Shown here: in pieces, positions 9,259-11,887 of the stretch
Position numbering within the stretch: position 1 is the first letter of the stretch
Layout: each line of letters opens with the position of its first letter
Source: Gammaproteobacteria bacterium RBG_16_51_14
GTDB taxonomy: Bacteria > Pseudomonadota > Gammaproteobacteria > Eutrophobiales > Eutrophobiaceae
Length of the DNA stretch: 39,733 nt
Reading direction: 5' to 3'
Assembly: GCA_001802375.1 (NCBI GenBank)
Contig: MGXK01000081.1
Span: 2,708 to 42,440 of the forward strand
Notes under the pieces: model-generated
Databases searched by the model: none
Told to the model about the DNA's origin: nothing
Seen by the model: the letters and a program-made list of their open reading frames with translations, nothing else
Made by a program: the position numbers and the translations under genes

Positions 9259-9918
9259 ATGTCCGATAAAAATGCTTTTTCAGCAGGATGGTACAACCAG
9301 ATAATATATCTGGTGAGCGCCCATACCCTGCAACAAATGCCACGTGATATTGGTGTGGAAGTTGCCTTCGCAGGCCGTTCCAACGCCGGGAAATCAAGTG
9401 TAATTAACTCGATCACAGGTAAAAATTCGCTGGCACGGATCAGCAAGGCCCCCGGCAGAACACGGTTGTTGAATTTTTTTGAGTATCGGGAGGGTATTCG
9501 ACTGGTTGACCTGCCAGGCTATGGATACGCGAAGGTGCCTGCAGAGGTAAAACAACACTGGATTGCGCTGCTCAACGGTTATTTTGAGGCCAGGGTTTCC
9601 TTGAAAGGAGTGATGCTTATTATGGATATTCGTCACCCTCTGACCAGGTTTGATGAGCAGATGCTGAACTTATGCCAGGCCACTGACAGACCCGTACATA
9701 TCCTGTTGAATAAATCCGACAAACTGTCCCGCGGGGCCGGAATGAACACCCTGAAGCAGGTAAAAACCCGTTTGCAACCGGGTTGCCAGAGCGTACAACT
9801 GTTTTCCGCGTTGAAGCAAACCGGTGTTGATGAGGCCCGTTCGATTCTGGGTTGCTGGTTAGGAAGTCCATCCGCTGACACTGAAATTACAGTGCTGTCG
9901 CCGGGCGTTTTTACATAA
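9259..9918 (+). CDS. engB: Ribosome biogenesis GTPase EngB (YihA/YsxC)
   Basis: 219 aa. GTPase motifs are in order: G1 GRSNAGKS (39-46), a threonine in APGRTRLLNFF for G2, DLPGYGYAKVP for G3 and NKSDKLSRG for G4. EngB assists late assembly of the 50S subunit and is usually essential. The ATG at 9259 follows an AAGGA ribosome site. In enterobacteria and Pseudomonas the gene neighbours polA and a small RNA gene (Spot 42 or ErsA). Here a predicted small RNA also adjoins it, but on the 3' side and on the opposite strand. Confidence 0.95.
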   Translation: MSDKNAFSAGWYNQIIYLVSAHTLQQMPRDIGVEVAFAGRSNAGKSSVINSITGKNSLARISKAPGRTRLLNFFEYREGIRLVDLPGYGYAKVPAEVKQHWIALLNGYFEARVSLKGVMLIMDIRHPLTRFDEQMLNLCQATDRPVHILLNKSDKLSRGAGMNTLKQVKTRLQPGCQSVQLFSALKQTGVDEARSILGCWLGSPSADTEITVLSPGVFT

Positions 9919-9964
9919 AAAAACTGGCCCCGGTATTATTAAGGGGAGGAAGGTAACCGGGGCC
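9917..9964 (-). terminator. Intrinsic terminator of the minus-strand small RNA
   Basis: A perfect 9-bp stem, GGCCCCGGT (9926-9934) and ACCGGGGCC (9956-9964), with a 21-nt loop. On the minus strand the stem is followed by AG and seven T residues (A-run at 9917-9923 on the plus strand). On the plus strand A residues follow instead, so it terminates minus-strand transcription only. The loop reads CTTCCTCCCC on the minus strand. Confidence 0.8.
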
Positions 9965-10092
9965 AAAAATACCCGGCTGGGGAGGCCGGGTTCATTATCT
10001 GCCCTGGGAGGACCAGGCAGAATTTCATCGTCACCAGTTTGGAATGTGAAACCGGGGATAAGTTCCGGTTTATATAACGGAAACCGCGGCAA

Positions 10093-10185
10093 CTATCTGC
10101 TTTTATACACAATGGCGGCTACCTGTGATGAACCAATTGTCTGGAGTAGGTCCAAGGATGCCATGAAGGCCGCATTAATAGGCAT
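10093..10185 (-). CDS. Possible 30-residue peptide at the 5' end of the small RNA
   Basis: An ATG (10185-10183) lies only a few bases after the predicted transcript start, so any translation would be leaderless; no Shine-Dalgarno sequence precedes it. The frame runs 30 codons, starting MPINAAFMASLDLL and ending VAAIVYKSR, before TAG at 10095-10093. The composition is protein-like, with an amphipathic alanine/leucine part and a basic tail, but a frame this short can occur by chance. Its position would make the RNA dual-function. Weakly supported. Confidence 0.2.
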   Translation of the reverse strand: MPINAAFMASLDLLQTIGSSQVAAIVYKSR

Positions 10186-10194
10186 AACTAATTG

Positions 10195-10224
10195 ATTATA
10201 TTTAATATATATAAATATGGTCAA
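10195..10224 (-). promoter_or_regulatory. Sigma-70 promoter of the small RNA
   Basis: Read on the minus strand: TTGACC (10224-10219), an 18-bp AT-only spacer, then a perfect TATAAT (10200-10195). Only one base differs from consensus. The predicted start is near 10188, pointing toward the hairpins and the terminator. Confidence 0.7.
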
Positions 10225-10284
10225 TTTTTAGCAGTTTTGTAACAAAGGGCATGGCAGTGCTGGTCATAGACACCTGTTCGCAAA

Positions 10285-10319
10285 TCATCCACATAGTTAT
10301 CCACAAAAAATGTGGATAA
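10285..10319. promoter_or_regulatory. Cluster of DnaA boxes
   Basis: Two perfect DnaA boxes TTATCCACA face each other: 10297-10305 on the plus strand and 10311-10319 on the minus strand, separated by AAAAA. A third, TCATCCACA (10285-10293), differs by one base. A tract of almost pure A/T (10195-10218) lies 67 bp to the left. The cluster could be a DnaA-titrating or DnaA-reactivating site, a DnaA-controlled element of the small RNA promoter, or part of an origin. There is no dnaA, dnaN, gidA or parAB in the window, so I do not call an origin. The inverted pair can also fold as a 9-bp hairpin. Confidence 0.6.
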
Positions 10320-10394
10320 TTTGCGATTACCAAAAGGAGCAATAGCTTAAGTAAAAAAACTAGAAACAGCCTTAGATTAACCTGCTAATTTGTA

Positions 10395-10421
10395 ACACCC
10401 CCGCCTGATTGCGGGTGGTGT
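10395..10421 (-). terminator. Hairpin at the end of the M48 protease gene
   Basis: ACACCCCCGC (10395-10404) pairs with GCGGG-T-GGTGT (10411-10421) with a single bulged T and a 6-nt loop. It abuts the stop codon (10421-10423) of the minus-strand M48 gene. Only a weak T/A stretch follows, so termination may be partial. Confidence 0.5.
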
Positions 10422-11887
10422 CATTGCACTATTTTTATCAACTCACCCGGATGAGGTTCCCCCTCGGGAAATTTACCATTCAGCAGGCGTAGTAGCTGCT
10501 CTGCATTGTGTTCCAGTGGGGACTGGCTGGCGAGTTGTCTGAAGTTGGTCGATTCCTCTGTCTGCATAATCTTCAGGCGCAAAGGCATCGCCAGTACCTG
10601 TTCATTGGGTGTCATGCTGTGAAAACTGTTGGCGGTTTCCTGAAAGGCCGGATCAAACAGGCCTATTGCATCGGGATTTTTTGTTATCCCGGCAAGGATA
10701 TAGGCCTGATTATTAAAATAGATCACATTAAAACGGGCCGGACGCCGCCCAAAGTCGGTATTGATGACAGCGATGCCGGTATAGGCGTCAAGCCCATGAA
10801 TATTCACCGCCCCCTCCCGGGAGAGATTGGCCAGGCCAAGTCGCTGCGCCATGAACTGCCTGGGTGGTATCCGTTCGTTGATATCCTCTACGGATAGTTG
10901 CTGCAATGCCTCCCCGTTGGGAGCAACCAGGATCAGGCTGTCCGGCAGGTTTCTGACATTCCATCCTTGTGGAAAACTGATCGTGAAACCAAGGTCGGCA
11001 TGGAAAAAACGACGACCCCTGACGATCCCGTCGTGTGGACTGTCGCCATAGATCATATTATCTACCAGGTGCATAAATTGCCCTTGTCCTGAATAGGCGT
11101 TGGGGACTGCTGCTTTCAGTTTACGGGCGCGTGTGATCACCTCCTGCAGGCGGGTGTCATTATCCGGGTGTGTGGAAAACAGGCCATGGTAGATGTTGGG
11201 CTCCCTTCCTTCCGCCTGGGCCAGCTGGGTTTCAAACTGTTCCTGAGACTTCAGGGCGCGGATGACATCCAGCATGGCCTCCGGGTCATAGCCGTTGCGG
11301 GCCAGGTATTCTGCCCCCAGACCGTCGGCTTCCAGTTCATGTTCTCTGCCGTAACCCCTCAGCAGTGCTGTCCCGAATACCTGTACCAACTGGTTCGTCA
11401 TCGGCTGGTTCATGCCCGGGATCAGGATTGAGCCGAGTGTGGCCCCGATATTGGCCAGTTGTACGGCACTGTATTGTCTGACGGAATGCCGTGCCGTGAC
11501 GTGCCCGATTTCATGGCCCAGGACGGCCGCCAGTTCAGCCTCTGATTTCAGATAGGCGAGGAGTCCGCGGGTGATGTAGATATAGCCGCCGGGCAAGGCA
11601 AAGGCATTGATATCCTTGCTGTCGAGGACAGTGAAGCGGTAGATCAGATTGTTACGATGGCTTTTCCCCGCAATCTTCGCGCCGGTATCCTGAACATAAC
11701 GTTGCAGCTCCTTGTTATCGTAGACGTCATACTGTTGCAGGACTTGCTGATGGGACTGGCGCCCAAGGGCGATTTCATCCTGTTCAGAGAGCAGGACCAG
11801 ATCCTGTTGCCCGGTAACGGGATTAACAGCACAGCCGCTGCAAATCAGCAGCAGGGTGATGAGGCTGTACAGGGGGATGCTTTGCAT
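10421..11887 (-). CDS. M48-family metalloprotease lipoprotein (BepA/LoiP-like)
   Basis: 488 aa. The N-terminal signal carries a lipobox (LLLICSGC), so it is likely a lipoprotein of the periplasm. The M48 zinc site is intact: HEIGH at 125-129 and the third-ligand motif ELEAD at 184-188. The proximal family motif FALPGGYIYITRGLL, which shields the active site, precedes it. The catalytic half resembles BepA and LoiP, proteases that clear misassembled outer-membrane proteins. The C-terminal half (about 270-488) lacks obvious TPR repeats, so it is not a standard BepA. It ends at the hairpin at 10395-10421 and lies downstream of the nuclease gene, probably as its own unit. Confidence 0.88.
   Translation of the reverse strand: MQSIPLYSLITLLLICSGCAVNPVTGQQDLVLLSEQDEIALGRQSHQQVLQQYDVYDNKELQRYVQDTGAKIAGKSHRNNLIYRFTVLDSKDINAFALPGGYIYITRGLLAYLKSEAELAAVLGHEIGHVTARHSVRQYSAVQLANIGATLGSILIPGMNQPMTNQLVQVFGTALLRGYGREHELEADGLGAEYLARNGYDPEAMLDVIRALKSQEQFETQLAQAEGREPNIYHGLFSTHPDNDTRLQEVITRARKLKAAVPNAYSGQGQFMHLVDNMIYGDSPHDGIVRGRRFFHADLGFTISFPQGWNVRNLPDSLILVAPNGEALQQLSVEDINERIPPRQFMAQRLGLANLSREGAVNIHGLDAYTGIAVINTDFGRRPARFNVIYFNNQAYILAGITKNPDAIGLFDPAFQETANSFHSMTPNEQVLAMPLRLKIMQTEESTNFRQLASQSPLEHNAEQLLRLLNGKFPEGEPHPGELIKIVQ

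Follow-up and report, generated by a model that had tools for sequence, protein, structure and literature searches.

We analyzed a stretch of 39,733 nucleotides (the window), in which the gap between two convergent genes was found to contain two adjacent non-coding elements on the minus strand, a small RNA (sRNA) gene and a cluster of DnaA boxes. The first gene is engB (9259..9918, plus strand), which encodes a YihA/YsxC GTPase (TIGR03598, 223.8 bits) and is convergent with the sRNA. The second (10421..11887, minus strand) encodes an M48-family metalloprotease with a BepA-like N-terminal domain (partial match to NF052400 at 119.5 bits, below the cut-off). The M48 gene lies upstream of these elements on the same strand and is a conserved neighbour; in many other families, polA is found there instead. 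A search of the window against Rfam at gathering thresholds returned tRNA only, with no family at the sRNA locus. The genome that contains the window also carries hfq and an rpoE gene, the latter scoring above the curated cut-off. Promoters and protein-binding sites were called throughout on the basis of motifs.

The predicted sRNA gene spans about 115 nt (9917..10031, minus strand) and aligns in relatives of the same family beside engB. Its 5' end is predicted about 6 nt past the -10 element and its 3' end inside a T-run. Three hairpins were identified on this strand. Hairpin 1 (9998..10021) has the loop UGGUCCUCCCAG (alternatively UCCUC, with three inner pairs), and its stem is kept in relatives with compensatory changes. 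Hairpin 2 (9971..9991), with the loop CUCCCCA, has the near-invariant sequence CCCGG-NCUCCCCA-GCCGGG. Hairpin 3 (9925..9965), recognized by folding and conservation, has the loop UUACCUUCCUCCCCUUAAUAAUA and forms the stem of an intrinsic terminator. The strong GC stem is followed by seven T (9917..9923), as an earlier note on this DNA had described. That note had counted four stem-loops; three of them are these C-loop hairpins, while the first (AAACCGG..CCGGTTT) overlaps the sigma-E-type promoter described below and is probably not transcribed.

Upstream of the RNA we found a sigma-E (RpoE/AlgU)-type promoter, GGAACTT-N16-TCCAAA (10037..10066, minus strand), whose motif is conserved in relatives. 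There, the pattern GAAC(T)T-N16/17-TCNA precedes the RNA at a near-constant distance to the terminator, and the same pattern is present in a Pseudomonas-type ErsA locus (L056). The -10 element of the window, TCCAAA, fits sigma-E less well than TCTAA does. We infer from the motif that the sRNA is transcribed from this promoter.

The earlier note had instead placed the start at a sigma-70-like site, TTGACC-N18-TATAAT, giving a transcript of about 270 nt with four or more hairpins. The site is indeed present (10224-10195, minus strand), matches the consensus at 11 of 12 positions and would use the same terminator, and the full 308-nt region is more stably folded than shuffled sequences (z -2.4). 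At the aligned position, all other loci have 2-9 of the 12 matches, and 11/12 was reached in the window only. Sigma-70-like sites with at least 10 of 12 matches anywhere in the gap were found in 9 of 51 loci, against about 10% in shuffled sequences, a frequency about equal to or modestly above that background. The site also falls within another conserved element, the AT-rich part of the DnaA-box cluster, beside an IHF-like site. No RNA alignment was obtained over the 5' 200 nt, only over query positions ~213-308 in relatives, where the conserved part, the three hairpins and the terminator, is only about 115-125 nt long. The median length of 48 homologous RNAs is 123 nt. We therefore rejected the window-specific TTGACC/TATAAT hexamers as a conserved promoter, and we consider a 270-nt sigma-70 transcript improbable.

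To describe the distribution of the sRNA, we used a nucleotide search and a survey anchored on engB. The nucleotide search covered 58 genomes, including that of the window, and significant similarity was found mainly over query positions ~213-308, the three-hairpin part. In 18 relatives, the match adjoins engB at its 3' side. For the anchored survey, the sequence downstream of engB was collected from 100 genomes, comprising 27 newly fetched loci of the window's family and 73 genomes of other families. Promoter, RNA and terminator were called automatically in 23 of the 27 family loci, and two more (L087 and L092) were recognized by eye; the remaining two (L085 and L091) appear degenerate, and no sRNA promoter was recognized in them. 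In other families of the class, 21 of 73 genomes were recognized in this way, and polA frequently lay on the opposite side. Because the automatic caller relies on a regular expression, these counts are lower bounds. Most loci come from metagenome-assembled genomes, and related sequences among them are not independent.

Some loci had unusual arrangements. Beside engB in L057, four tandem copies of the sRNA type were found on the minus strand (~1089-1194, 1307-1403, 1510-1610 and 1724-1827); they are matched by the anti-hemB, sX13 and ErsA models and are possibly sibling sRNAs. One genome (G057) has two sRNA copies, one beside engB (L074) and one elsewhere in the genome (L018). In L021, cytochrome c4 directly follows the sRNA; engB was not detected between the two, although the gene order is otherwise similar.

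The structure of the RNA was examined across relatives. Stem 1 went undetected when RNAalifold was run on a MAFFT alignment, since MAFFT lines up the C loops but leaves the stems unaligned; the stems were therefore anchored by hand. Among 16 distinct six-pair versions of stem 1, 94 of 96 cells were paired and changes on both sides were seen at every pair, although the stems were chosen by eye and these percentages therefore lean towards structure. The sequence of stem 1 varies between genera while the stem is retained. Since the stems had been picked for pairing, a comparison of the 5' segment with shuffled sequences served as an independent test. The mean z-score was -2.6 over 25 loci, with related genomes counted as separate; the window's own copy (stem-loop 1 alone) was weak, at -1.1. 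Stems 2 and 3 hardly vary and carry no covariation information.

The loops are conserved as well. CUCCC/CCCC is constant in the loops across relatives, and TCCC sites were predicted to be unpaired with a probability of 0.83, compared with an overall background of 0.48 (48 RNAs). One could read hairpins 2 and 3 as plain tandem terminators that guard the convergent engB and M48 transcripts, with no regulatory RNA involved, given that they are GC-rich, lie in a convergent gap and include one with a T-run. The conserved promoter, the conservation of loop sequences and not of stems alone, the covariation in stem 1 and the correspondence to experimentally known Pseudomonas RNAs at the engB locus make this extremely improbable. 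Conservation, the changes in stem 1 and the unpaired loops instead give good support to the proposal of a trans-acting sRNA with repeated C loops resembling anti-Shine-Dalgarno sequences, comparable to sX13. Judged from their open state and by analogy with sX13, the C-rich loops would most likely pair with G-rich Shine-Dalgarno regions, although complementarity to such regions is weak evidence when taken by itself.

We compared the RNA with known families by searching Rfam at permissive thresholds. The same ~105-120 nt were matched by the models of anti-hemB, ar14, Pseudomon-1/ErsA and sX13. The best score was that of anti-hemB (RF02837; 30.9 bits, E 2e-5; gathering threshold 49.5), followed by ar14 (RF02344; 25.3 bits, threshold 58.8), ErsA/Pseudomon-1 (RF01719; 23.1 bits, E 0.023, threshold 50) and sX13 (RF02232; 15 bits, threshold 50). 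The Spot 42 model (RF00021) gave no match at E <= 10 in the window locus. Over 274 genomes of the class, the ErsA model gave 22 matches at E <= 0.01, one of them above the threshold. Two polA-engB loci of other families (L063 and L065) pass the anti-hemB threshold, with 51.7 and 58.4 bits, and the RNAs at the engB locus in different families are matched alike by the anti-hemB, ErsA and sX13 models.

ErsA is a sigma-22 dependent RNA in the polA-engB gap (PMC7565897, PMC8575079). Like the window sRNA, Pseudomonas ErsA lies on the 3' side of engB in convergent orientation, has a sigma-22/sigma-E-type GAACTT promoter (in the window by motif only) and comprises about 115-130 nt with three stem-loops and an unpaired C-rich stretch in the terminator loop. 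The two differ in that ErsA has polA directly upstream, whereas the window has the M48 gene with the DnaA-box element in between, and in sequence, the window scoring far below the Rfam threshold. In the Pseudomonas-type locus L056 (ErsA, 121 bits), the C-terminus of PolA is followed by GAACTT-N17-TCATA and then the RNA. The earlier view that Spot 42 and ErsA lie on the other side of engB is thus incorrect for ErsA, which occupies the same 3' side, with polA immediately upstream in L056.

The other families share part of this architecture. Anti-hemB (Burkholderia RNA 7) also has CCUCCC in its first loop, a second hairpin and a terminator, although the window copy remains below its threshold. 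The sX13 RNA of Xanthomonadaceae has three stem-loops with C-rich loops, lies downstream of polA and acts on GGGG motifs near start codons (PMC3771888). It resembles the window sRNA in its length of 115 nt, its three stem-loops and its C-rich loops, but differs in its low model score, in having polA where the window has the M48 gene and in being Hfq-independent in Xanthomonas. Alphaproteobacterial ar14 and cuckoo-type RNAs likewise expose C-rich CCUCCUCCC-type loops on stable hairpins, yet the ar14 model scores well below its threshold in the window, and these RNAs come from another bacterial class. Judged from gene neighbourhood, the sigma-E-type promoter and architecture, the window sRNA belongs with ErsA-, anti-hemB- and sX13-type RNAs. 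The suggestion of an undescribed family holds insofar as the RNA falls below every Rfam threshold, but these features connect it to RNAs already described.

The second element, just upstream of the sRNA, had been missed by the earlier note. Three DnaA boxes make up its core (10285..10319, minus strand), namely box I TTATCCACA (10319-10311), box II TGTGGATAA (10305-10297) and box III TGTGGATGA (10293-10285), which together read TTATCCACA-N5-TGTGGATAA-N3-TGTGGATGA. This is the orientation and 9-5-9-3-9 spacing of the cores of E. coli DARS1 and DARS2, DnaA-reactivating sequences that recharge the replication initiator DnaA. The three boxes of the core have the same spacing in DARS1 as in DARS2, with box I opposite to boxes II and III (PMC5742627) and spacers of 5 and 3 bp. 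The core of E. coli DARS1 is TTATCCACT-ATTCC-TGTGGATAA-CCA-TGTGTATTA (L251) and that of DARS2 is TTATCCCAG-CTTTC-TGTGGATAA-CAT-GGTGTAAGA (L249). By eye, the window core is identical to that of DARS1 at 28 of 35 positions. In contrast to the E. coli sites, which neighbour uvrB-bioD or mutH, the element in the window lies between engB and the M48 gene and has a consensus box I.

Further conserved parts were found on the sRNA side of the core, all on the minus strand. An information profile of 50 aligned loci identified a block in the AT-rich part, ACAAAACTGCTAAAAATTGACCA (10218..10240), between the DnaA boxes and an IHF-like site, AATCAATTAGTTA (10185..10197; WATCAA-N4-TTR). Of 51 loci, 31 have the strict consensus [AT][AT]TCAA-N4-TT[AG], almost invariably in the same place. 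A distal DnaA box, TGTGTATAA (TTATACACA on the other strand), lies at 10103..10111, and 46 of the 47 aligned loci have it as exact TGTGNATAA. DARS2 has an IHF site in its flanking regulatory region and a further box, and the IHF-like site of the window may be a counterpart of the former. On the other side of box I, family loci have a block TTTCTAG...TTAAGCTA..TTGCT (~10330-10375 in the window), which is possibly a Fis site.

We searched for the DARS core with up to two mismatches, using the reversed pattern as the control and gammaproteobacterial genomes only. The core was found in 46 of 53 family genomes, usually as a single copy at the engB locus, and the copy in the window is the only one in its genome. 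Across the class, 180 of 229 genomes had the core, often in 1-3 copies, with about 2 matches to the reversed pattern among those listed. In gammaproteobacterial relatives of E. coli, conservation of the DARS2 core has been reported (PMC4245941).

The strong conservation of DnaA boxes, an AT-rich stretch and an IHF-like site could also indicate the chromosomal replication origin, oriC, particularly as the 5' side of dnaA has just 0-2 boxes in six relatives under a relaxed box pattern. This reading was rejected because GC skew does not switch at the locus: no sign change occurs at 10.2 kb in the window, and the skew is also same-signed on both sides in two relatives with long contigs (G014 and G010). 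The cumulative skew minimum lies at dnaA in G010, and in G014 it is offset from dnaA by about 30 kb and from engB by 80 kb. A box cluster at the 3' end of dnaA speaks against the reading as well, and we regard oriC at the engB locus as very improbable. In six relatives (L198-L203), the relaxed pattern matches between one and three times at the 3' end of dnaA, between about +1315 and +1481 counted from where the dnaA match begins; these DnaA boxes are a candidate oriC of the window's family.

The position of the distal box bears on the relation between the two elements. Box I and the distal box are about 203-208 bp apart in nearly all loci (215 in L037, the locus of the cultured relative Methylohalomonas lacus), whereas the distance from the distal box to the -35 element varies from 23 to 56 bp. 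Since the first distance is nearly constant and the second variable, the distal box is more probably part of the DnaA element than of the promoter. Its main role might nevertheless be that of an operator by which DnaA regulates the sigma-E promoter of the sRNA. The exact conservation of the box so close upstream of the -35 element, at distances grouped at about 33, 44 and 56 bp, would fit such a role, as would its absence from the 21 sRNA loci of other families (0/21), which also indicates that sRNA and DnaA element separate in evolution. Besides the fixed spacing to box I, some family loci disagree with it: L085 and L091 keep the DnaA boxes with no promoter recognized, and L016 has promoter and sRNA without a full match to the distal box. 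We therefore consider the operator reading possible but rather unlikely. Away from engB, a pattern of box and promoter together gave some extra matches, comparable with the control pattern, and was discarded.

Taken together, these comparisons of sequence make it likely that the locus consists of an ErsA-kind sigma-E sRNA of about 115 nt and an adjacent upstream DARS-like DnaA-binding element. Sigma-E would transcribe the sRNA from GGAACTT-N16-TCCAAA, probably under envelope stress, up to the GC terminator facing engB. The three hairpins would hold the CUCCC/CCUCCCC loops unpaired, and most likely these would pair with the G-rich Shine-Dalgarno regions found in several mRNAs and reduce their translation. 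The sRNA would thus probably repress G-rich ribosome-binding sites by base pairing. Like those of ErsA and other sigma-E sRNAs, its targets would probably be mRNAs with envelope-related functions, and Hfq, on which regulation by ErsA depends, might have a role in its action. At the DARS-like element, DnaA is expected to assemble head to head on boxes I and II with the help of IHF, leading to ADP release. The element most likely turns ADP-DnaA into ATP-DnaA, or holds DnaA, and would thereby time replication.

A broader reading, which we hold to be unlikely as a whole, is that the DARS-like site and the sigma-E sRNA form one functional locus coupling the DnaA cycle to envelope stress, that ErsA, anti-hemB and perhaps sX13 constitute one polA/engB superfamily, and that DARS cores are class-wide. 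Under such coupling, occupancy by DnaA and IHF could affect how much sRNA is transcribed, or IHF on the DARS-like site could be disturbed when the M48 gene or the sRNA is transcribed. At E. coli datA, tRNA read-through has been reported to disturb IHF (PMC10950094). Judged by titles and abstracts, a literature search for work joining a DnaA box, a small RNA and RpoE found nothing relevant.

The findings link RNAs that are separate in Rfam, namely ErsA, anti-hemB and, more weakly, sX13, by one gene neighbourhood, which offers a testable unification; for ErsA-like loci, the sigma-E-type promoter strengthens this link. They also make a case, from sequence only, that DARS-type sites, which have been studied in E. 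coli, are present in most sampled Gammaproteobacteria; one strongly conserved DARS-like example occupies a fixed position in a family of mostly uncultured bacteria. Coupling of the two neighbours, if it exists, would mean that replication timing and envelope stress have a regulatory locus in common.
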